Of a stretch of 21,187 bases of DNA, positions 2,011 through 18,360 are shown in pieces. Every line of letters begins with the position of its first letter. Position 1 is the first letter of the stretch. Both the position numbers and the translations under genes were made by a program. Under the pieces are notes generated by a model. That model searched no databases and was not told the origin of the DNA. It was given only the letters and a program-made list of their open reading frames with translations. The stretch comes from Psilocybe azurescens (Eukaryota; Basidiomycota; Agaricomycetes; Agaricales; Agrocybaceae). The stretch covers positions 1 to 21,187 of the forward strand of contig JAJIRX010000986.1 of assembly GCA_023853785.1 (NCBI GenBank), in the 5' to 3' direction.

Positions 2011-2619
2011 TCAGAGCTTCAAGTGAAAGAAGAGGCGATACATCGGAGAAGACAAGGCATCAGGATGGTCAGAGTTTGTGTAATCGATGATATTCTCAAG
2101 AATCTCGCTGTTGTCGCCGAATGTGTCATCTTTTTCCCACATTGCTTCGGAGATAGGGAATCTGGTCCATTTGATAAGATACTGATATTTTTGCTTTCCT
2201 TTCTTGGGTTTTTGTCCCGTCTTTCTGTGATTCAGAATAGTTTCAACTTCCCAGTGTTCTTCCTGATTTTTGATCTTGGGTGGTGGTCTAGGAAAGTTCA
2301 GTCTGTATGTTTCCGTCTCGTTATATGGCATGAGCAGAGTGGCATGGAAAACATCGTGGATCTTCCATATCTTGGGTATTTTGAGTCTGTACGTGAGAGG
2401 TCCCAAGACCTCTGTGATCGTGAACAGGCCTTCTCGCTTCGGTTTCATCTTCAAATGATACCTCGTGGAGATGTTGCGGGAGTCTAGCCAGACTTTTGTT
2501 CCTTTCTCAAATGGTTTGAAGTTCGATTTTTGTCTTTCAGCTATCCTTTGTCTTGCAAGTTCGTGGGCGGCTAACGCTTCTTCTCGATCTTTTAGGAGGT
2601 GTTTGACCTTTTCCTCCAC
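2011..2619 (-). pseudogene. gypsy integrase C-terminus: GPY/F and chromodomain
   Basis: An uninterrupted 202-codon stretch contains a GPY/F-type module (LGPLTYRLKIP, WKIHDVFHATLL). It then has a chromodomain (EEHWEVETILNHR, YQYLIKWTRFP, MWEKDDTF). Chromodomains at this position define chromoviruses and are thought to guide insertion into particular chromatin. The tail after FGDNSEILENI changes frame near 2011, and a plausible C-terminal tail continues to 1824 in another frame. Confidence 0.87.
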
Positions 2620-3689
2620 CGATGGGGCTTTGGTGTTCTCGAATGCAAGTGGAATGGCTATCAGGGATGAACCTAGGTGAGTTCGAACAGGGTTTTGGCC
2701 CTTTCAGAGTGTTTCCTATTGTTGTGAGTGAACTCTAATGTTCCAACTGACTTGTTCCAGTCAGTTGGGTGTGATGAGCAATAGATGGATAGATAGGCTT
2801 CTATTTCTTGATTGAATCATTTGGTGGTTCCATCTCCTATTGGATGATAAGCCGTAGTTAATTTGGACTTGATTCCCAAGAGTTTCATGAGTTCTTGAAA
2901 GACTTTTGCAGTGAATAGGGGAGCTCGGTCAGAGATGATACTATCTGGGAGTCCAAATCATTTGAAAAGGTTGTCAAGTAAGAGTTGAGCTGCTCCTTCC
3001 ACGTCAAGTGCTTCTCCTGGTTTCCCTTTCTTCTGGCAAGGTATTAAAATCACCCTCTTAGTAAGCCCATGGTCTACCACAACCATGATCGCATCCACAA
3101 TCTGTCCTGCGCCATTTTTAACTGGCGGTAAGTCAGTTAGAAAGTCCATCGAACAGTTTGCAAATAGTCACATAGAGGTTGGTCTGGCTATTGGCATGAA
3201 GGATGGGTGCGAGGGGTTCCTGTTAATCTTGAATTGTTGACAGATCCCGCAGCCTTTGACATATTGCTTAATGAAGGATCGCAGCCCTGGCCACCAGTAA
3301 TGTGTTTTTACTGTGTTGTAAGTTTCAAGTTCTCCCGGGTGTCCTGCCAAGGGTAGATCGTGAAAGGATTTTACTACCTGTTGTTGTAGATTTTGGTTCT
3401 TCGGTATATATGTCTTGTCTTTATAAAAATGATGTTTTTCCTGTTGAATTCTTCTGTTCTCCAGTTGTTGAGGTCGGTTCGTAAATTCGGTGGTCCCCCT
3501 TGTAATAGAGCTTTCAAGATTTCTGCAATATCCATGTTGAATTCTTCTGAATCAATGATTTTCTGTTGTAGTTCAGTGTCAATCAGATTGATGAAGAGTT
3601 CCTCTGGTAATAGGGTTACATCTTCATTATTATGGTCTTTGTCTAGTATAAGATCTGGTCTTCTGGACAAGGTGTCGGATTGAATCATT
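2620..3689 (-). pseudogene. gypsy integrase zinc-binding region and core
   Basis: The HHCC zinc-binding region is visible as HDLPLAGHPG and CGICQQFK (about 3380-3230). The catalytic core follows as MDFLTDLPPV (first Asp, about 3149) and then [11 protein letters not shown] with FNQEIEAYL (second Asp and Glu region). In-frame stops fall near 2957, 2820 and 2670. Integrase would insert the element cDNA. The order and spacing fit a chromovirus integrase that has decayed. Confidence 0.82.
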
Positions 3690-4204
3690 TTCGTCCCAGG
3701 CATGTGGATCAGTTTCAGATTAAATTTGGATAGGAATAATGACCATTGAGCTTGCCATCTGTTCAGATTTCTTGGGCTTCTGAAGTAGGTCAGGTTCTTG
3801 TGGTCAGAATGAATGACTGTTGTGTGTTCGGATCCTTGGATGTAGTGTCTCCATTCCTGTAATGCTTGTACAATTGCCAGGAGTTCTCAATCGTAGATCT
3901 CGTAGTTTCTTTCCGTTGCAGAGAAGGTTTTTGAAATGAATACACATGGGTGTCTTTCACTGTTTCCATTGAGTTGAGTCAGAACGGCTCCAGATGCATA
4001 TTTGGAGGCGTCGCATTCAATTTGAAATGGTTTGCTTGGGTCTGGCATTGAGAGAACCGGTTCTTCCGTGAATCGTTGTTTTAGTTTGTCAAATGCTTGT
4101 TGAGCTGCTTCTGTCCATTTGAATTTCTTGTCCTTTTGAGGAGGTTGTTCAGGGGTTGTGCTACCATAGAGAACTTCCTGATGAATTTTTGATAGAAATT
4201 TCAA
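3690..4204 (-). pseudogene. gypsy RNase H domain with in-frame stop
   Basis: Translation shows FKWTEAAQQAFDKLK, then FQIECDASKYASGAVL (first RNase H Asp) and SATERNYEIYD. It is followed by an in-frame TGA at 3887-3889, and the same frame resumes with ELLAIVQALQEWRHY and HSDHKNLTYF. The domain would degrade the RNA strand of the RNA/DNA hybrid. The downstream frame runs on to MPGTKMIQSDTLSRRPD at about 3700, the usual end of the RNase H region in gypsy elements. The stop shows decay. Confidence 0.85.
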
Positions 4205-4873
4205 ATCCCAGGAATCCCCTGACTTGCTTGACTGTGGTAGGCGCAGGCCAGTCTTGGATTCCTTTAAGTTTTGATTGGTCCATGGAGATCTTTCCTTCTT
4301 TGATTATCATTCCCAGGTATTTGACTTTTGGTTGTTTGAAGATGCATTTCTCTGGTTTGAAGTACAGGTCGTTATCTTTTAGCCTCTGTAGGACAATCCA
4401 TTCATATTTTGTCAAATCTTCTTGATTTTTGGCATAGATTAAGATGTTGTCCATGTAGATAATCATGAATCCTCCAGAGATTTTGCCTTTGAACAGCGAA
4501 TCCATCATGGATTGAAAAGTGGCCGGGAATTGCATAACCCAAAAAACATAACCGTGGGTTCAAAGAGTCCTCGATTTGTTTTGAAGGTGGCTTTCCGTTG
4601 ATCTTCCTTTCGAATGCGAACATTGTTATATCCTTGCCTGACATCCAATTTGGTAAAAAATTTCCCTCCTTTGAGTTTGTCCAGTAGATCCAGGATCTGT
4701 TGCAGAGGGTAGGCATTCTTTACTGTCCATTCATTTAGATATTGATAGTCTTGACAAGGTCGTAGTTTTCCATCTTTCTTGGCTACAAAGAAAAAAAGCC
4801 GATGCGATGTCCGATTCTGATTTGACAATATATCCTTTGTCCAGCATTTCCTTAAGAAACTTGTCCTGTTCAA
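4161..4873 (-). pseudogene. gypsy reverse transcriptase, YMDN active site
   Basis: Two overlapping frames give most of a Ty3/gypsy RT. The first (4873-4505) has [17 protein letters not shown] and [16 protein letters not shown], covering RT motifs with the first catalytic Asp in LDVRQGYN. The frame changes near 4540. The second (4535-4161) has [19 protein letters not shown] and YLGMII. The catalytic box at 4446-4457 reads Tyr-Met-Asp-Asn where active enzymes have Tyr-x-Asp-Asp, so one metal-binding Asp is lost. With the frameshift this marks a dead RT. Confidence 0.88.
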
Positions 4874-4930
4874 TTTGTTCTTCTGGGGTGAGGCTGTAGA
4901 CTTTGCATGGTTTCGGTTTGAATCCGGGTT

Positions 4931-5683
4931 TCAGTTTGATCTTGTGGTCCCAGGGTCTTGAGATGGGAAATCGATCTGCTGCTTTTTTGTCAAAGAGTCT
5001 GAGATAGTCATGAAGGTCCGGGGAATAAGTTCTTCCAGAGGTTTAGCAGGTGTCCTGTTTTCGTGTTCCATTGCCAGAGTTTGTGAAGCCGTGGTTTTCA
5101 CGTTGATCCATGCCTGGTCCATTTCTTCGGAGTCTTTTGCTTTGATAAAATCTATTACCAAAGCATTGAAGTCCTCAAGTGGGGCATCTGTGGTGTCCAT
5201 GATTGGTTCAGTTTCTTCCAGTTCTTCTTCCATAGTGGTAGAGTGGATGGATTTGGAAACTCTCCATTTAACTCTTCCAGTTTCACAATCGATATCTGGG
5301 TTTTGTTTCTGAAGCCAAGGCAGTCCTAGAATAATCTTTTGTTGTCCCAGTCCAGAGACAAACAGAATTTCCTTGTTTGTTCTGTTCCCGATGGTAAGAT
5401 TGAGTTCTACAAAGGTAGAGATTGTTCCTTTCTTGTTGAGAGTTCTGTCCGTGTTGTACACCTTGAGGCTTCTCTTCAAGGGTTTTTGTTTGAGTCCTAG
5501 CTTCTTAGCATAGTTTTGGTTGATGAATTTTCCACCAGCTCCAGAGTCAATTAGACCCAAGATTTCGACGATTTGTGGCTTTCTGTTTTTTATGGCAGAG
5601 AATGAAATCAGTAAATGCATAGATTTATTCTTGAGCATAGCCATAAATATAGAATAGATGCCTAATCGTGGAGAGACCAACAT
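4931..5683 (-). pseudogene. gypsy aspartic protease domain
   Basis: An open stretch of 250 codons with the retroviral-type aspartic protease signature LIDSGAGG near the N-terminal third and ILGLPWLQ about 80 residues further on. The protease would cut the gag-pol polyprotein. The DSG motif is intact here. The stretch continues into the linker before the RT (GLIPRT-like and TKKQQIDFPSQDPG) and then loses frame close to 4931, where the RT begins in another frame. It is part of the larger decayed element. Confidence 0.8.
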
Positions 5684-6247
5684 CGATTCGGTTCTCCGTT
5701 TTAAAAATCCTCAGTGTTGTTATCCTCCTCCTGGTTTCCCATTGCCAAACTTGCCAGTTCTTCTCTCTCCTCCATGTTCAACTCCCGGATATGGGCATGA
5801 AGGTCCTTGGGTGTCCATTTCTTCTTTGTCGGTTCCTTCGGTATGAAAGGATTGTTGATGGTCGGCTTGTACATCAGCTTAGTAATAGTCACCATTCTCA
5901 ATTTCGTCACTGTCTTGCCTCCTTTGTTTATGCCTTAATCATTGCTCTCGCTTCTCATCACCACCTTCCTCCCATTTGTACTTGCCAATCCTTCATTAGT
6001 TCAACATATCGCTTCTCCTTCTTATGTAGCTCATCCTACGCATCACGCTCGTTCTCACTTATAGTCGCTCTTTTGCTTTCTGTACCTCAGCTGCTTTATT
6101 TCTTCTGCTGAGGTACTTATTGTTTTATTCTGCCTTACTCAGATACTTACTTTTACTCTGAACAGTGTCTAACTTCGTTACTAAGGTAGACAAATACAAA
6201 AGCTGCTTTATTTCTTCTGCTGAGTGTCTAACTTTGTTATTAAGTTC
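5684..6247 (-). pseudogene. gypsy gag-protease linker region
   Basis: Between the zinc knuckle and the protease, the minus strand is A/G-rich and codes for charged, helix-prone stretches (for example SAEEIKQLLYL and LNMEEREELASL). This is usual for the linker in this element class. Stops and frame changes interrupt it. An exact 24-bp direct repeat sits at 6089-6112 and 6201-6224, suggesting a local duplication of about 110 bp. Confidence 0.55.
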
Positions 6248-7227
6248 TCAACAAGGTTTATTGTTTTTCTTCTTCTGAGGGCAATCTACCATGAGATGTC
6301 CCATTTGTTTGCATCTGAAACAAGCCCCTTTTTCATGAGGCTTGTTTGTTCTTCGGTGGTCATGACGTCGACATCCATTGCAAAGGGTCCTTCTTTGGCA
6401 TGGCTCTGGGGATGAATCGCGTGTTTGATTGAGATGGGCCTTTAATTGCCATAGCAAGTCGATAGCTCCTGTCAAAGGTCATGGCTTTGTCGTACCATTC
6501 TTCAATTTTTGTGGGCTTCTTTTCAGACATGATGATTTTCTGCACTAGCGCCCGGGTTTAGCGCCGTTTTGAACATTTCGATCAAGAGTTTGTTTGCAGT
6601 GTTGGAGTCATTTGACATCCCTGCCTCTCCAACCAGTAGTTTGAACTTTGTTACTAGTTGTTCGGCGGTCAGGTTCTTTTGTCGAAGCATTTTTAATTTG
6701 TCTAATGCATCAATGTCTTCTTCTTCTGGCTTGAACACCTTCTGGAATTTGTTGATAAATTCCCTGTAAGTCGGTAAGTCAATATCCCCTGTGTCGAGGT
6801 TCAATTTGTTCTGGATGAATTGTTGTTTCCAAACGACCGTGTTCCCTTCTTGCATGTAAGAGAGAATGAAGCGCAATCTGTTTCGGTTCGGTGTCATAGG
6901 TGTCCTTGTTGATCCCCATATAGAGGATACATTCTTGAAGGAATTTCTTGCTCTTAAACCATTCACTGTTGAAGGGTGTAGGTTTGCTAAGAGAGAGTTC
7001 CCTCGTCTTTGGGGCATCAATTATTTGTTGGTCAACCATTTGTGTTTCGTTCGGTTCAGAGATTTCAGAGGGATCTGAGGCGTTGGTGAAGTATTCTTCT
7101 CCTGACGATAGTCCTGGAGTTCGGGTAGTGGGTTGAACGTCTGATGTAGGTGTTCGTTCACCACTGTCGTCGGTGTCATAGTTTGTGGAGAAGGTTCTGC
7201 TTTGAGATGTTGTGGTGTCTGGTTCAA
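6248..7227 (-). pseudogene. gypsy gag relic with CCHC zinc knuckle
   Basis: Gag forms the particle that packages the element RNA. The capsid-like part reads as PTYREFINKFQKVFKP and EQLVTKFKLLVGEAG (about 6770-6600), typical of fungal gypsy gag. The preceding part (KPTPFNSEW, FLQECILYMG) is in another frame, so there is a frameshift near 6850. The C-terminal part carries CFRCKQMGHLMVDC, a CX2CX4HX4C nucleic-acid-binding knuckle, just before a stop at 6248. At least three frames are needed to follow gag. It is a relic, not a working gene. Confidence 0.8.
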
Positions 7228-7731: not shown

Positions 7732-8801
7732 CATGAAGGACTTGGGATTCACTAGGCTCAAATCTGATTACTGCTGCTACAAATGACAAGAGGGTGAAGA
7801 ATTTGAGATCCTACTTGTCTGGGTAGATGACATCCTATCTATTACAAACTCAGATGCTTGGAACAATTTATTGGAGCAACAATTATGCCAGAAATTTGAT
7901 ATTAAATTGCTGGGACAACCCTCACTACTTCTAGGAATGAATTTTATACAAGATCACCATTCCAAAGTCATTTCCATTTCACAAACTGCCTACATTAATA
8001 ACTACTCAAGAAATTTTGTCTGGAGGATGTAAACCCAGTCACTACTCCCATGGATCCAAATGTGAAGCTTGACAATCCAGATGTACCTCAAGGAAAATTG
8101 GACAAGCAGGGGAGCAGCTAAAACAAGCCAGTGCTAGCTATGCAACACTTATAGGATCGCTTACATATTTAGCAATTGGAACCCAGCCAGACATTGCATT
8201 TTCTGTCCAGAAACTTGCACAGTTCACCAAGAACCCTCAGAAACAGCATTGCACAGCTGTTAAACAAATATTTTGCTACCTTAAAGGTACTTGAGACTAC
8301 AAACTCACCTATGGTCATGAAACCAAGGAAATCAACCAAGAATTAAATATTTACTGTGATGCAGATTGGGCATCAGATAGAGACAGGAAATCTATCAGTG
8401 GATACATTATCAAACTAGCTGGAGGTGCTGTCACTTGGAGTGCAAAGAAACAGAGCACAGTAGCTCTTTCAACTGCAGAAGCAAAGTACACTGCTGCTAC
8501 TCACTGCGCAAAACAGGTACTCTGGCACAGAACATTATTCATGGAATTAGGAATTGATATTCCTACTACCTCAACCATATTCTCAGACAACCAAGCAGCT
8601 GTCTCAATTGCTCACCACCCAGAATTTTATTCCAAAACCAAACACATTGATATCTCCCTCCACTTTCTTCGTGATCTTGTCCAGAATGGCACCCTCAATT
8701 TAGTATATATCAATACCAGAGAAAATATAGCAGATCTATTCACCAAGGGACTACCTAGGACATTACACCAGGACCTCACATTCAAAATTGGAGTATTCTA
8801 G
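7732..8801 (+). pseudogene. Ty1/copia pol 3' end: RT and RNase H relic
   Basis: Plus-strand translation gives DLGFTRLKSDYCCYK and then ILLVWVDDIL, the copia RT active-site region, followed by FDIKLLGQPSLLLGMNF. After frame breaks near 7790, 8030 and 8110 it resumes with YATLIGSLTYLA and FSVQKLAQFTKNP. A TGA interrupts near 8294. The RNase H part is well kept: YCDADWASDRDRKSISGY, STAEAKYTAATHC, SDNQAAVSIAHHP, KTKHIDISLHFLRD and NIADLFTKGLP. It ends with a TAG at 8799-8801. Gag, protease, integrase and the N-terminal RT are absent, so this is a 5'-truncated, inactive copy. Confidence 0.9.
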
Positions 8802-10062: not shown

Positions 10063-10374
10063 TCAAGTGATGAGGCTAGGATGGGCTAAAGTGATATATA
10101 TAATATTAACATAAATAAAAAGAGACAAATAAATTGGCTTACAAAGAAGGTTTTGAAAAATTATGTTTTGAAATTTTGCAAAATCATCAGCAGATGGGCA
10201 ATATTGTTTTGTGATCCAGTCACCCTTCTGCATAGATGACAAATAAGCTTTTAACAGTTGATCAACTTGACCACATATATCTTTCATATAAATGGTCCAA
10301 GCTACTGAAAATAGGTAAAAGTGTCATCACTAGTTGAAGAGATCCAAAAGAAGATTCAACTGTGATAAGAATAG
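10063..10374 (-). other. GTPase 3' exons and stop
   Basis: After TTTCAG at 10375 a short exon follows whose 3' boundary is unclear. A clear last coding stretch begins at 10304 (ATTTTCAG|TAGCT) and reads AWTIYMKDICGQVDQLLKAY, then SSMQKGDW and ADDFAKFQNIIFQ, a helical tail like that of the family. TGA is at 10063-10065. An optional 57-nt intron (GTAAGCC...ACTTTAG) near the end keeps the frame. RNA evidence would be required to fix the junctions. Confidence 0.55.
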
Positions 10375-13300
10375 CTGAAACAAACAATGAGATAGACAGA
10401 TTAGGAAGACAGAATAAGTATTTACTAACCTGCAAAAGCATTGAGGGATGGCCTCTATAACAATGATATTTAATGAATAACAGAGTTTTAGAAATGCAAG
10501 TCCAGGACCCAAATAGAATCTTACAGGAAATTGATTACAAATATGTTGTTTGATTTGTTCAGTCTATAAAATACAAATAATATCAAAAAAAAAGAACAAC
10601 AATCAGCATGTAATAAGGAATAAAGTTAACACAGCTTACTAACTAAATAGAGTGTGATATTGATATATTATTAATTCAAATCAGCACAAGTAGTATACAC
10701 AACTTACATTCTGAAAAAATATAATGAAAAGAATATTAATAACTGCAGTAAATAACAAACAGTGCACTAAACTTACATGCTGAATAAAAATTAATGCAAA
10801 AAATGTGAGCAATTGCAACCAATCACAAAAAGTGCACACAACTTACAGCCTAAATGAAAAATGAATACAGAAAATGTCAACAATTGCAATCAATCACAAA
10901 AGTGCACACAATTTACATCCTGAATACAAATTAGTGCAGAAACTCTCAGTAATTGCAATCAATCACAAATAGTGCACACAACTTACAAACTGAATAAAAA
11001 TTGGTGCAAAAATATCAGCAATTGCAATTAATCACAAACAGTACACACAATTTACATTCTGAATGAAAATTGATGCAGAAACTCTCAGCAACTGCAATCA
11101 ATTACAAACAGTGTACACAACTTACCTCCTGAATAAAAATTGATATAAAAATATTAGTAATTGCAATCAATCACAAATAGTGTACACAACTTACAGCCTG
11201 AATAAAAATGGATGCAGAAAATATCAGCAATTACAATCAATCACAAACAGTGCACACAACTTACTCCCTGAATAAAAATTGATGCAGAAAATATCAGCAA
11301 TTGCAATCAATCATGAATAGTGCACACAACTTACAACCTGAATGAAAATGGATGCAGAAAATATCAGCAATTGCAATCAATCACAAATAGTGTATACAAC
11401 TTACATACTGAATACAAATTGATGCAGAAACTCTCAGCAATTGCAATTAATCACAAACAGTGCACACAACTTACTTGCTGAATGAAAATTGATGCAGAAA
11501 ATATCAGCAATTGTAATCAATCACAAACAGTGCACACAACTTACAAGCTGAATGAAAATTGATGCAGAAAATATCAGCAATTGCAATCAATTACAAACAG
11601 TACACAACTTACATCCTGAATGAAAATTGATACAGAAAATATCAGCAATTGCAATCAATCACAAATAGTGCATACAACTTACATCCTGAATACAAATTGA
11701 TACAGAAAATATCAGCAATTGCAATCAGTCACAAACAGTGTACACAACTTACTCCCTGAATGAAAATTAATGCAGAAACTCTCAGCAATTGCAATCAATC
11801 ACAAACAGTGTACACAACTTACAAACTGAATGAAAATAGATGAAGAAAATATCAGCAATTGCAATCAATCACAAAAGTGCACACAACTTACATCCTGAAT
11901 GAAAAATGAATGCAGAAAATATCAGCAATTGCAATCAATCACAAATAGTGCACACAACTTACATTCTGAATGAATATTGATGCAGAAACTCTCAGCAACT
12001 GCAATCAATCACAAACAGTGCACACAACTTACATTCTGAATGAATATTGATGCAGAAACTCTCAGCAACTGCAATCAATCACAAACAGTGCACACAACTT
12101 ACACGCTAAATAAAAATTAATGTAGAAAATATCAGCAATTGCAATCAATCACAAATAGTGTACACAACTTACATACTGAATACAAATTGATGCAGAAAAT
12201 ATCAACAATTGCAATTAATTACAAATAGTGCACACAACTTACTTGCTGAATAAAATTGATGCAGAAAATATCAGCAATTGCAATCAATCACAAATAGTGC
12301 ACACAACTTACAACCTGAATGAAAATTGATGCAGAAAATATCAGCAATTGCAATTAATCACAAACAGTGCACAACTTACAGCCTGAATGAAAATTGATAC
12401 AGAAAATATCAGCAATTGCAGTCAATCATGAATAGTACACAACTTACAGCCTGAATGAAAATCAATGCAAAAATATCAGCAATTGAAATTAATCGCAAAC
12501 AGTGCATACAACTTACAGGCTGAATAAAAATTGATATAGAAAATGTCAGTAATTGCAATCAATCACAAACAGTGCACACAGCTTACATTCTGAATTAGAA
12601 TTGAAGTTCAAAATATTAGCAGTTGCAATTGAGCATGCAATCATTTTTCTACTAGTTGGATTCATACATTATAATCCTTATAACATGCTGTTAGCACATT
12701 ATTCATAGTTCTAAATATTGTACTCACATGCTATCTTTATGACATTATTACAATTCAAGTCAAGTAAATATTTGCTACTTACAGTCTAATTTAATGTCAG
12801 TTACTGTATTTTATGACATTGTGGCATGTTCACATACATAAAAGTTATGTGGAAACCAACTGATGACCTCAAATATCAAATGATCCTTTATATATGAATT
12901 AACCACTTAAATCATCTAACACACCTTAACCAACATACCATATTCATTATATTTGTTATATTTGAATTCCCAATGCTAAAAGAATATAATAAGCAACATT
13001 AAAATATAACAAACTAATAACATACTTCTTTATTGCATATTCAATGCATATCTTTAAATTATTCTGCTGAACAGTAACAAACAGCATTTTCAGAGCAAGG
13101 TTATCTATTGATGCTGTTTTTTTGATCAACTCTTCAATTTGTTTTTGGTGATCACTTTCATTTTTATCAAGTGCTATTCATAATATTAAGTCTCTAAATT
13201 GATTTGGCAAATTATAAATGACTTACCCTCAAGCCGAACATAACTTTGTGGGGAAATTTATAGCTTCTAAGTGGCTGCTCAAACTTCTGCTGCAAAGTGT

Positions 13301-14137
13301 CCAAAGCATGCTTGGTATTCTGCTCTGGGGTATTGTTTCTGTTCCAAACCTGGCTGATAAGATCATCAAATTTCATGAAGATTGCCACAACTGGCACTGG
13401 TTTCATGTAAGTTTTCATCATTGAAATGTTTGTGCCAAGCTTACCATTCCATTTGCGGTTTTCATTAAAAATTTAACTTCCAAGTCCAATAAGGGGCGTG
13501 ATACATCTGGATCAAAGCAAAACCTACACCCATTGTGATCTGAGGTGCTTCAAATAAAATAAAAACAATAAACACATACCATATGATATGAATTTGATCA
13601 TTTACTTCATTGGCCTTTGAACCCTCTTCAATGAAATCCATTACAGCCTTCAGTTCCTCCCTCGCCCCCTGCCTCAAAACCCGCCGAGTCATGGAAGATG
13701 AACTTCGGGTTACTCTTAAATGTGAATGCTCGACGGACGTCATGAGTTCCACGCTTCAATACCAAAAGTCAGTCGTTTGATCTGTGGGAATGCAGAAATT
13801 ATGGAGTAGTACCCTCGAAGTCGGTTCAAGCTATTGACAAATAATAAGTGTCTGATATCTTGCGTAGGGCTGGATAGCTCACAAGATTTTTACCCTCATC
13901 GTAGATGGATGGCTCTTCAGTCGTGTTACATACCCGCTTTAACAGGGTTGTTTTGCCAGCGTTCGCCCTCCCGATAACAAGAATGCGGAAACGGGTGTAT
14001 TTGGCTCGAAGTTTCGCGGCCTCTTTCCTTGATACTGTCCCAGTACTCGGCGATCCAAGTCCCAGGGATTTCTTCAGTCGATTGCCCAACGCTTTGACTT
14101 TCGACTCTTTAGCAGGATTTTGACGATTAGCGGACAT
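10063..14137 (-). CDS. P-loop GTPase-like gene with single-codon microexon array
   Basis: An intron-rich gene on the minus strand, about 4.1 kb and roughly 40 introns. The N-terminal half is a TRAFAC-like G domain: GRANAGKT P-loop, FIFHDSAGFE (DxxG) and AIFMKFD (family TKxD position). I recognise it as a lineage-expanded Agaricomycete family of P-loop proteins of unknown role; this is recall, not a search. After the G domain come seven-plus ordinary exons, then 31 single-codon exons and one 9-nt exon, then exons coding for a hydrophobic segment and a helical tail ending at TGA 10063-10065. The start at 14137 (MSANRQNPAK) is preferred over an upstream in-frame Met because the family starts near there. 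A 1-nt insertion in exon 2 and two junctions that do not close in frame mean that this copy, as given, is not translatable end to end. It is a pseudogene or has assembly indels. Function is unknown. Confidence 0.7.
10430..10563 (-). other. GTPase exon after the array
   Basis: Enters in phase 0 at TTTTATAG|ACT and is open over 134 nt: TEQIKQHICNQFPVRFY, then LGPGLAFLKL and SLNIIVIEAIPQ, a hydrophobic stretch, up to TGCAG|GTTAGT. Open phase-0 continuation after 31 codon-sized exons is the main support that the triplets are codons. A possible extra intron starts at CCT|GTAAGATTC and ends ATTGTTATAG (70 nt). If it is used, the downstream frame becomes RPSLNAF and AILITVESSFG instead. Confidence 0.6.
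10640..10919 (-). other. array microexons 25-28 and downstream microexon TTA
   Basis: In transcript order: 10917-10919 GAT (Asp, donor GTAAAT); 10847-10849 GCT (Ala, acceptor TTTAG); 10777-10779 CAT (His); 10708-10710 AAT (Asn). A further 3-nt exon, TTA (Leu) at 10640-10642, sits between CTATTTAG and GTAAGC in a diverged 65-nt intron that no longer resembles the array but keeps GCTGAT. Its donor opens a 76-nt intron ending TTTTATAG. Confidence 0.75.
10987..11337 (-). other. array microexons 19-24
   Basis: In transcript order: 11335-11337 GTT (Val); 11265-11267 GGA (Gly); 11195-11197 GCT (Ala); 11126-11128 GAG (Glu); 11056-11058 AAT (Asn, donor GTAAAT); 10987-10989 TTT (Phe). All are in phase 0 between GT...AG introns of 66-67 nt. 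Confidence 0.8.
11405..11755 (-). other. array microexons 13-18
   Basis: In transcript order: 11753-11755 GGA (Gly); 11683-11685 GAT (Asp); 11613-11615 GAT (Asp); 11545-11547 CTT (Leu); 11475-11477 CAA (Gln); 11405-11407 TAT (Tyr). The CAA-TAT pair repeats the pair in microexons 6-7 and shares rare intron variants with it. Confidence 0.8.
11823..12175 (-). other. array microexons 7-12
   Basis: In transcript order: 12173-12175 TAT (Tyr); 12103-12105 CGT (Arg); 12033-12035 AAT (Asn); 11963-11965 AAT (Asn); 11892-11894 GAT (Asp); 11823-11825 TTT (Phe). The two AAT units are identical over the full 70-bp period, a very recent duplication. The CGT unit uses a TTTAG acceptor. Confidence 0.8.
12243..12589 (-). 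other. array microexons 1-6
   Basis: In transcript order: 12587-12589 AAT (Asn); 12517-12519 CCT (Pro); 12448-12450 GCT (Ala); 12380-12382 GCT (Ala); 12312-12314 GTT (Val); 12243-12245 CAA (Gln). Each lies between a TTCAG acceptor and a GTAAG donor, phase 0. The first donor is GTAAGC. Confidence 0.8.
12668..12785 (-). other. upstream non-repeat microexons: ACT, CAT, GATTATAAT
   Basis: Three tiny phase-0 exons precede the tandem array in introns not part of the homogeneous repeat. ACT (Thr) at 12783-12785 lies between ATTAAATTAG and GTAAGTAGC, with branch CTGAC. CAT (His) at 12728-12730 lies between AAAGATAG and GTGAGTAC. GATTATAAT (Asp-Tyr-Asn) at 12668-12676 lies between GTTATAAG (branch GCTAAC) and GTATGAATC. 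The introns are 52, 52 and 51 nt. The next intron (78 nt, 12667-12590) has a 3' half resembling the array intron. Confidence 0.65.
12838..12975 (-). other. GTPase exons 6 (12939-12975) and 7 (12838-12867)
   Basis: Exon 6 (37 nt) follows CTTTTAG and completes the codon left by exon 5, reading NIGNSNITNIMNM, and ends in phase 0 at ATG|GTATGT. Exon 7 is 30 nt, in phase 0: VISWFPHNFY, between TTTGAG and TAT|GTATGT. From here every exon up to 10563 has a length divisible by three and starts in phase 0. Exon 7 introduces the microexon series. Confidence 0.65.
13026..13173 (-). other. GTPase exon 5
   Basis: After acceptor ATGAATAG the exon reads LDKNESDHQKQIEELIKK, then ASIDNLALKMLFVTVQQNN and ICIEYAIKK, a conserved stretch after the G domain in this family. 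Donor AAGAA|GTATGT leaves two bases. The entry phase does not match exon 4 (one base short), but the exit phase matches everything downstream. Confidence 0.8.
13227..13396 (-). other. GTPase exon 4: G4 region
   Basis: Reads VPVVAIFMKFDDLISQVW, then NTKHALDTLQQKFEQPL and SYKFPHKVMFGLR before the strong donor AGG|GTAAGT. The G4 position, usually T/N-K-x-D, reads MKFD here, so the first residue is unusual while Lys and Asp are kept. The exon is open over 56 codons. Its junctions to exons 3 and 5 each miss one base in phase. Confidence 0.8.
13445..13523 (-). other. GTPase exon 3
   Basis: Acceptor GGTGTAG and donor ATG|GTAAGC enclose 79 nt. Joined to the TG left by exon 2, it reads W-FCFDPDVSRPLLDLEVKF-LMKTANGM, the usual stretch between G3 and G4 in this family. 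It ends in phase 0, while exon 4 needs one leftover base, so the junction is 1 nt short. Confidence 0.75.
13580..13753 (-). other. GTPase exon 2: DxxG motif, then 1-nt insertion
   Basis: The acceptor TTGAAG (branch CTGAC) opens in phase 0 with RGTHDVRRAFTF, then SNPKFIFHDSAGFEAGGE, containing the G3 motif DSAG. Directly after GGCGAG an extra G (GAGGGAGGAAC) shifts the frame. The expected continuation EELKAVMDFIEEGSKANEV and DQIHIIW is intact in the next frame up to the donor ATATG|GTATGT. Read literally, the exon reaches a TGA 12 codons later. No splice site can bypass the extra base. Confidence 0.8.
13883..14137 (-). other. GTPase exon 1: P-loop
   Basis: 85 codons from ATG to AATCTT|GTGAGC, phase 0. 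A basic, Ser/Lys-rich N-terminus (residues 1-45, with KALGNRLKKSLGLG) is followed by FRILVIGRANAGKTTLLKRV. The Walker A/G1 motif GRANAGKT is at residues 56-63. CNTTEEPSIYDEGKN is the conserved switch-like stretch of this family. There is no signal peptide. The frame is uninterrupted. Confidence 0.85.
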
Positions 14138-16195: not shown

Positions 16196-17213
16196 CACCT
16201 AATATTCCCACTGTTCGGAGCTACTTAGCTGGCAGGATCCGATACTCACGTGCCGCCTATTTAGCCTGCTTTTTGCTGATTTCTCTTGCTCGCCAAGAAT
16301 GTCTGTCAATATCTCTCTGACTTGTGCAGAGGTTCTCGGTGTGTTATCCCCGAGGATACCGACCACTGTCCCCGCCCGCTTACCGACATGCCGGACATGG
16401 TGCCACGATGCCATCATACCAGAAATGGTATGTCGGCTGTTGATGGCAACTTTGGGCACTGTTCCGCTGCCTTGTGCTCGCTGTTGGACACAGTGAGCAT
16501 GAATATTCCGGTGTCCCCTTTCAATTTTTTCTTGCTTTTTGGTATTCCCATACTTTCCTATGTGTATATCAAGTAATAAATGTGTTTATTGTGCTCTGGC
16601 ACCCTATTTAGGCATAGAAAGGAGGTGTTCCTCCTGGAGTAATTCCGAGTACTCCTAGCCTTGCTCATGGCACATATACAGAAATATGTTATCTAGAATT
16701 AATCTAATGAAATTTATGAACTGATTTAAAGAGACATTTTGGCCATAGAGATAGCAGAACATGTCTAGATAGAGAATAGACCTGGAGGATGGTAGGTATT
16801 CCTATGAGGCTGCTTGCTAGCTATGGCTAGAGCTATCAAGTATTTGATCTTTCCCTGACAGTATTTATTCATTTAAAAGTTAAAAATGCGACCGCTTCAA
16901 CAGGAATACAATGATTTGAAGCTGGCTGGATAGTGCTTATCATGGGGTCATAAACACAGTAATGGAGGTAAAATAAAATGCAGAGAATGCTTTCATTTCA
17001 CTTAATAGGATATAATATGTCACAATATAGCTATTGAATGGCTAGAAACGAGTATCTAATGCGTCTAAATAGTGAGAAGAACTAGGTATTCAAAAATCGC
17101 GTATTTCTCACTTAGCTCCACTAATATCGGTCATAAAATTGAGATAAATGTGTAGATATGTAGCCTTTAACAATAGAAATAAGATACAAAAACCCGAAAG
17201 GGATTCATGCAAG
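16196..17213 (+). repeat. palindrome left arm
   Basis: 1018 bp, reverse complement of 17350-18360. The differences I found are seven extra bases here: one T near 16270, one T near 16528, two bases near 16650, one A near 16876 and two bases (TC) near 17107. The ends near the centre are ...GGATTCATGCAAG. Confidence 0.85.
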
Positions 17214-17349
17214 TGATAAAAGATATAGCGAAAAATGTCCCAAAATCATCGAAATTGATGGAAGCTTACTGACTTCTATTTAAGTGTATATCATTGACAT
17301 CATCAATGTGTCCTTTTATTAACGCTATTTTCTCAATATCTCCTCACCG
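17214..17349. other. palindrome centre (loop)
   Basis: 136-bp AT-rich spacer between the arms. Its outer edges still show weak inverted similarity (AAGATATAGCGAAAA against the complement of TTTTCTCAATATCTCC), so the original palindrome may have reached further in and decayed. Confidence 0.7.
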
Positions 17350-18360
17350 CTTGCATGAATCCCTTTCGGGTTTTTGTATCTTATTTCTATTGTTAAAGGC
17401 TACATATCTACACATTTATCTCAATTTTATGACCGATATTAGTGGAGCTAAGTGAAATACGCGATTTTTGAATACCTAGTTCTTCTCACTATTTAGACGC
17501 ATTAGATACTCGTTTCTAGCCATTCAATAGCTATATTGTGACATATTATATCCTATTAAGTGAAATGAAAGCATTCTCTGCATTTTATTTTACCTCCATT
17601 ACTGTGTTTATGACCCCATGATAAGCACTATCCAGCCAGCTTCAAATCATTGTATTCCTGTTGAAGCGGTCGCATTTTTAACTTTAAATGAATAAATACT
17701 GTCAGGGAAAGATCAAATACTTGATAGCTCTAGCCATAGCTAGCAAGCAGCCTCATAGGAATACCTACCATCCTCCAGGTCTATTCTCTATCTAGACATG
17801 TTCTGCTATCTCTATGGCCAAAATGTCTCTTTAAATCAGTTCATAAATTTCATTAGATTAATTCTAGATAACATATTTCTGTATATGTGCCATGAGCAAG
17901 GCTAGAGTACTGGAATTACTCCAGGAGGAACACCTCCTTTCTATGCCTAAATAGGGTGCCAGAGCACAATAAACACATTTATTACTTGATATACACATAG
18001 GAAAGTATGGGAATACCAAAAAGCAAGAAAAATTGAAAGGGGACACCGGAATATTCATGCTCACTGTGTCCAACAGCGAGCACAAGGCAGCGGAACAGTG
18101 CCCAAAGTTGCCATCAACAGCCGACATACCATTTCTGGTATGATGGCATCGTGGCACCATGTCCGGCATGTCGGTAAGCGGGCGGGGACAGTGGTCGGTA
18201 TCCTCGGGGATAACACACCGAGAACCTCTGCACAAGTCAGAGAGATATTGACAGACATTCTTGGCGAGCAAGAGAAATCAGCAAAAGCAGGCTAAATAGG
18301 CGGCACGTGAGTATCGGATCCTGCCAGCTAAGTAGCTCCGAACAGTGGGAATATTAGGTG
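17350..18360 (-). repeat. palindrome right arm
   Basis: 1011 bp, reverse complement of the left arm. A 135-residue minus-strand open frame (18271-17864) has a near copy in the left arm (16286-16576, plus) that is interrupted differently because of the indels. This argues against a conserved protein. Confidence 0.85.

Follow-up and report, generated by a model that had tools for sequence, protein, structure and literature searches.

Can a gene be built in such a way that each copy of a tandem DNA repeat contributes exactly one amino acid to its protein? The question is raised by a window of 21,187 nt from the mushroom Psilocybe azurescens (the whole stretch of DNA analyzed here, contig C849), on whose minus strand a first-pass annotation had read 28 tandem units, each made of an intron and a single codon. 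The units are there: 30 AG-NNN-GTA sites lie between 12785 and 10640, and 28 of them make up the tandem array (period 70, 27.8 copies in TRF). The stricter pattern YAG-NNN-GTRAG has 29 matches on the minus strand of the window, with a longest chain of 22, and none on the plus strand; 200 first-order Markov resamplings gave a mean of 0.9 sites and never two in a chain. A chance origin of the pattern is excluded. When the window gene is segmented freely, with any exon length from 1 to 40 nt allowed, 30 of its 36 exons come out at 3 nt. The reading of the array as a row of single-codon microexons, a prediction from genomic sequence, is supported; the earlier observation is correct, and it understated the case.

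The gene in the window

The array lies within a GTPase gene that has a P-loop and a G domain. Its first exon (13883..14137, on the minus strand, as are all parts of the gene) contains the ATG at 14137 and the P-loop GRANAGKTT. The closest proteins, with identities of up to 84%, are G-domain proteins of Psilocybe cyanescens, other family copies of the genome match three P. cyanescens proteins at 98-100% over single exons, and homologs carry the Pfam domain MMR_HSR1. The last large exon ahead of the array is exon 5 (13026..13173, ending in ..IDNLALKMLFVTVQQNNLKICIEYAIK), which is present at 40 loci. It is followed by exon 6 (12939..12975; 37 nt, and 25 nt in several paralogs with the phase unchanged) and exon 7 (12838..12885; 48 nt, phase 0, ending in ..VISWFPHNFY), both of them placed in an alignment of 27 copies.

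Two single 3-nt exons come next, u1 (ACT, 12783..12785) and u2 (CAT, 12728..12730), then a 9-nt exon, u3 (DYN, 12668..12676), and then the array itself (10708..12589). Its 28 single-codon exons read AAT CCT GCT GCT GTT CAA TAT CGT AAT AAT GAT TTT GGA GAT (1-14) and GAT CTT CAA TAT GTT GGA GCT GAG AAT TTT GAT GCT CAT AAT (15-28). A final 3-nt exon, TTA (10640..10642), precedes the downstream exons. These flanking exons had all been named in the first-pass annotation, and each has AG before it and GT after it. The intron lengths given there, 65-68 nt, also hold (among the 28 introns from the first array codon to TTA, 17 measure 67 nt, six 66 nt, four 65 nt and one 68 nt), as does phase 0 for the exons around the array.

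Downstream lie exon A (10525..10563; 39 nt, also in the paralog consensus, phase 0, TEQIKQHICNQFP), exon B (10430..10454; 25 nt, RPSLNAFA) and exon C (10143..10374), which encodes the conserved C-terminal part. In the paralog consensus (ILISLEYSFWITSTS..KFQNIIFQNLL) exon C is a single open frame of 77 aa; its relatives are found in array classes I-III, defined below, and in the Laccaria protein P0059. Its codon-position bias is weak (0.20/0.16/0.22, C860 left out), and the predicted structure has low pLDDT over the C-terminal part. The peptide of the window gene would run, as inferred from these exons, from exon 7 through T, H, DYN and NPAAVQYRNNDFGDDLQYVGAENFDAHNL to TEQIKQHICNQFP.

In the window copy the frame of exon C is broken by a homopolymer difference. 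By eye, 1-nt homopolymer differences from paralogs and homologs lie at 13250-13690 and 10143-10374, breaking the frame in the G-domain and C-terminal exons, and several further copies also have frame breaks in large exons. The breaks in the window copy may be assembly errors or decay; the same kind of homopolymer difference in other copies suggests assembly errors. The window array is free of defects, with 28 of 28 units intact. Elsewhere in the window there is a near-perfect inverted repeat (16196-18360, ~1 kb per arm with ~136 nt between the arms), which is either a palindrome or a fold-back assembly artefact; the minus strand at 2011-7039 has ORFs with breaks that resemble a Ty3/gypsy-type retroelement, and the plus strand at 8541-8801 has an ORF resembling a Ty1/copia-type RNase H fragment (both by eye).

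A family of arrays

The surmise that GTPase paralogs would have tandem introns of ~67 nt after the IEYAI motif is borne out within the same genome, of which 70.4 Mb in 937 contigs were searched. A protein search with exon 5 found 39 loci which, together with C860 (from the upstream-exon search) and C387 and C323 (from the downstream-exon search), make 42 exon-found loci, and an array is present at 39 of these. Two copies are broken and carry decayed units, four in C211 and one in C693, and the C323 locus is cut by a contig end; a 40th array (C313), at a contig start, was located through its units alone. The upstream exon as probe has 29 near-full matches at 81-100%, the window among them, plus a further 6 that are weaker; the downstream exon has 28 matches, and 26 class I loci have both. 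The exact class I unit pattern has 324 matches in the genome (its reversed control has none), 320 of which fall in family loci, as do all 133 exact class II matches. Introner-like elements, which would place the same intron in many unrelated genes, do not describe this pattern, the matches being confined to family loci. Viral contigs contain neither family units nor the Laccaria relative.

Arrays across the family comprise 7-49 codons, and the 40 parsed array peptides are all distinct (the parse behind this count also takes in a few sites not within arrays). The term "hypervariable", used from the start for the peptide, is apt between gene copies and on an evolutionary scale. By intron sequence there are four classes of arrays: class I, with 29 arrays and a period of 70; class II, with six and a period of 69; class III, represented by C758, with a period of 70 and a resemblance by eye to class I; and class IV (C454, C576, C450 and C438), with a period of 68. 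A tblastn check recovered exon 5, array and C-terminal part in that order at each of the six class II loci, at the single class III locus and at all three class I loci examined; class IV loci yielded no recognizable C-terminal part. Identity to the exon 5 probe falls to 37-49% in class IV genes, which makes it likely that the design is old and that its intron sequences have turned over.

In an alignment of 40 relatives from mushroom-forming fungi most annotated models, judged by eye, go no farther than the exon just before the array or a short way past it; Moniliophthora P0098 extends into a piece of the conserved C-terminal part and Laccaria P0059 covers the whole of it. The only annotated proteins found with the C-terminal part are P0059 and two unnamed ENA proteins, and a repeat search gave none. 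Gene finders may be unable to follow the array, or some proteins may end there. That the protein of the window gene ends before the array (at a VCEYATAL stop, as in the P. cyanescens models), leaving the array and everything downstream untranslated or dead, is very improbable: P0001 does stop there, P0002 differs by one residue, and the stop is visible by eye in many paralogs, but the stretch resembles a typical intron (GTATGT..CTGAC..AG), and an open part beyond the array, related to one Laccaria C-terminus, is kept in classes I-III.

Five further patterns with two consecutive 3-nt exons were also searched for. Four of them matched known loci or nothing, and one matched only C761. About 1.5-8.3 kb of that locus (L082, C761:8500-18400) hold ~117 single-codon exons with two main intron lengths. 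In one segmentation all 63 exons measure 3 nt and most introns either 68 or 50-51 nt; a wider run gives 117 three-nt exons among 130 and no stops, its outer parts being doubtful. The predicted peptide (..REFAEKFRVREKFRETVREIVRENGIREEIRARLKNLEKRLDLKELLDLNERLKRLNDL) is coiled-coil-like, with E, R, K and L in abundance. Hydrophobic residues stand 3-4 apart in 64% of cases versus 25% in shuffles, a spacing for which the higher-order DNA repeats (2-4 units) could be sufficient; the helical moment is not above that of shuffles. Similarity to the GTPase at C761 is at chance level (tblastn with five family proteins, best E 2.4 among the matches listed), and an exon row without GTPase similarity suggests that the device may extend beyond a single family. 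Ahead of the C761 exon row, inspection by eye gives a possible start (MDETLETQIQRLEEK).

Constraint on introns, variability of codons

If the array were a non-coding minisatellite in one intron of 1-4 kb, its triplets never appearing in mRNA, the internal donors, acceptors and branch A should drift, yet they are nearly invariant. When 706 class I units (from 29 array loci and C211) are aligned from branch site to branch site, the donor G and T are each kept in 702 of 705 (one unit having no base there), the acceptor A in 699 of 702 and the acceptor G in 702 of 702 (four having none), rates that are slightly optimistic because the alignment model mildly favors GT and AG. The branch A of CTRAY, on which the alignment is not anchored, is kept in 705 of 707. 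Other intron positions in class I are mostly 2-30% non-major, with three at ~50%. Branch motifs CTGAC or CTCAT stand in the consensus of classes II-IV, with the A non-major in 0, 0 and 1.5%. Thus the units have the GT donor, branch site and AG acceptor of spliceosomal (U2-type) introns; donor, acceptor and an exon of exactly 3 nt occur together in 679 of the 706 class I units, and 15 of 30 copies are without any defective unit. The introns are constrained as introns.

The small exons u1 and u2 lie outside the repeats, yet they too are kept, and this also speaks against a minisatellite. In 27 copies (C387 and C313, which lack the region, being left out) u1 stands between AG and GT (26) or GC (1) without exception, u2 is intact in 26 and u3 in 27. 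The introns before and between them are only 72-82% identical across copies, and u1 and u2 themselves vary as much as their introns (72 and 77% identical), u1 appearing as ACT, AGT, AAC, AAT, GAT, TAT or AAA. Exon length, tried as a proof of coding, gave no support: changes to 0, 1, 2 or 4 nt affect 18 of 706 units (seven of them in copies C139 and C860, homopolymer errors confounding the count), and exon indels are about as common as intron indels, which is what a minisatellite would lead one to expect. One unit of C139 has a 0-nt exon, its acceptor joined directly to a donor, like a ratchet point.

The most variable bases sit between acceptor and donor, which also counts against a minisatellite. 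Exon bases 1 and 2 are non-major in 59% and 57% of the 706 class I units, at the top of the 70 columns, and base 3 in 4%. In class II, likewise, variability peaks at exon bases 1 and 2. Base 3 varies too in class III, where the three exon bases rank above every other position of the unit in entropy (by non-majority share base 3 stands at 0.42, below the top intron site at 0.52); in class IV the first exon base is the most variable, the second being level with the top intron site. The contrast with the introns is sharpest among units whose 67-nt flanks are identical: 1,740 such pairs between genes differ at the three exon bases in 67%, 72% and 0% of cases, as compared with 69% for random draws, and 568 pairs within genes differ in 50%, 59% and 0%.

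There are no stops in 1,078 array codons. Shuffling third bases within arrays leads one to expect 4.4 (P=0.005), and shuffling all bases 12.6. First parses had 2 TGA and 3 TAA from overlapping sites. On re-reading, two of the TAA became TTA followed by a GTAAGT donor, and the third, which belonged to a 2-nt exon, was left out, so that the count was 0 of 1,101 before, and 0 of 1,078 after, dropping 24 sites in all that were outside arrays or ambiguous. Since the third base is T in 966 of the 1,078 codons, the lack of stops is only moderately informative, and to that extent a minisatellite is left some room. A class I codon whose third base is almost always T leaves bases 1 and 2 free to encode 15 amino acids and no stop; Cys, Met and Trp together account for only 6 of 1,078 codons. 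The flanking phases of 0 also accommodate a minisatellite, as removal of the whole array would keep the frame. With the splice sites, the small exons and the placement of the variable bases set against it, we consider it improbable. The reading that we consider probable, from the sequence evidence at hand, is of a mushroom GTPase family with an array of ~67-nt introns and 3-nt exons between conserved parts, predicted to be spliced so as to retain one amino acid per repeat.

Splicing, diversification and known systems

In fungi, short introns are usually recognized through intron definition. If intron definition applies here, a 3-nt exon should be no obstacle. Simultaneous occupation of two sites with 3 nt between them is hardly to be expected, and for that reason the introns would be removed in sequence, in the manner of a ratchet that leaves one codon behind at each step. 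Any number of units could be skipped with the frame still kept. Many peptides might then come from each gene by alternative or stochastic inclusion of different codon subsets (Dscam-like or MEG-like), which is compatible with the array of single-codon exons and can hold on top of it. Near-identical units should allow a donor to pair with a distant acceptor, and every skip preserves phase 0, but definition of short introns favors neighboring sites, and we regard such variation as possible though rather unlikely.

How arrays diverge can be followed in close copies, of which seven pairs were compared. C480 and C281 differ at 1.6% of intron sites and at 75% of N1N2, their codons being scrambled; C553 and C520 differ at 2.6% of intron sites and (by an intron-based alignment) at 23% of N1N2, with the codon order largely kept. 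Diversification is thus not continuous, and constitutive codon hypermutation as the sole cause is ruled out by the second pair. Linkage between sites is weak, and as strong across an exon as within an intron; codons remain weakly linked to intron sites nearby. Intron-bounded replacement finds no support in that test. Arrays often have a lower codon diversity than the pool, as local duplication would lead one to expect, though this does not hold for the window array. The pattern fits exchange of units or arrays together with selection on codons. Gene conversion or unequal exchange would homogenize the introns within and between arrays (the homogeneity is observed), and the codons would diversify, selection in favor of new peptide sequences being the simplest cause. 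A targeted codon mutator, or RNA-mediated copying of introns by reverse splicing, in place of selection and ordinary concerted evolution would account for codons randomized between units with identical flanks and for the C480-C281 pair, but the codon order kept between C553 and C520 tells against it, as does, for intron copying, the linkage across exons; we think it quite unlikely.

The outcome, on the reading of ordinary exchange and selection, would be a peptide of ~30 residues behind a G domain that would serve in recognition of nonself, of a parasite or of a partner. Such a recognition role, like that of the hypervariable repeats of fungal incompatibility genes, is likely, although this part of the proposal is weaker than the rest. 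A broader claim, which we hold tentatively and just on the doubtful side of an even balance, is that codon-by-codon splicing is general in this lineage: an intron repeat, being absent from the protein, would be free to be copied and shuffled as DNA, and arrays of up to 50-100 codons may provide a rewritable recognition peptide that possibly varies between transcripts. If single codons are indeed retained as read in the GTPase family, this is an architecture with the intron as repeat and the codon as payload, in which unequal exchange creates diversity without changing the frame. Dozens of introns 3 nt apart would also be a hard test for splicing models, and a blind spot of gene annotation would be exposed, models of relatives in several mushroom genera ending near here. 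The whole would amount to a new fungal diversification system, with a logic comparable to that of the hypervariable repeats of incompatibility genes.

No description of arrays of single-codon exons was found in the open PMC literature (subscription papers and preprints being mostly outside it). Several known systems share parts of the design. Plant ultra-short microexons show that exons down to 1 nt are spliced, and that annotation misses them (PMC8831610), and Xlr2 of Trichoderma has one microexon in a fungus (PMC11121469); in those accounts microexons are single or few per gene and not in tandem with repeated introns (PMC8831610, PMC11121469). Ratchet points of recursive splicing also juxtapose acceptor and donor for stepwise removal, but as apparent zero-length exons in long introns (PMC8605326); here 3 nt would be left at each step, and AG and GT, instead of being directly joined, are 3 nt apart in 679 of 706 units. 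Schistosome MEG genes are a family thought to make protein variation from a row of very short exons, mostly multiples of three (PMC10526429). The exons there are mostly 15 bp (with overall ranges of 3-81 and of 6-81 both stated) and the introns 0.1-5 kb (PMC10526429); the present family has the chain of short multiple-of-three exons without the long introns, an exon here being one codon and the introns near-identical and 65-68 nt long.

CNN00420 of Cryptococcus is a basidiomycete gene in which a tandem repeat includes a full intron and the splicing of identical introns in a row has EST support (PMC2395259). That is one gene with few repeats of ~107 nt that include exon ends; it is without single-codon exons, and the available text of the report describes no hypervariability (PMC2395259). 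The WD40 repeats of Podospora NWD/HNWD genes are similar in evolutionary behavior: several family members, a variable number of repeats, and concerted homogenization while a few codon positions diversify (PMC1805685). The domains are not shared, neither NACHT nor WD40 being found by Pfam (E 0.01) in a scan that covered five homologs and not the window protein itself, with G-domain families leading. Near-identical repeats with hypervariable codons are common to both, but the Podospora repeat codes and folds (PMC1805685), whereas in the present family an intron is what repeats, and an exon consists of nothing but its variable codon.
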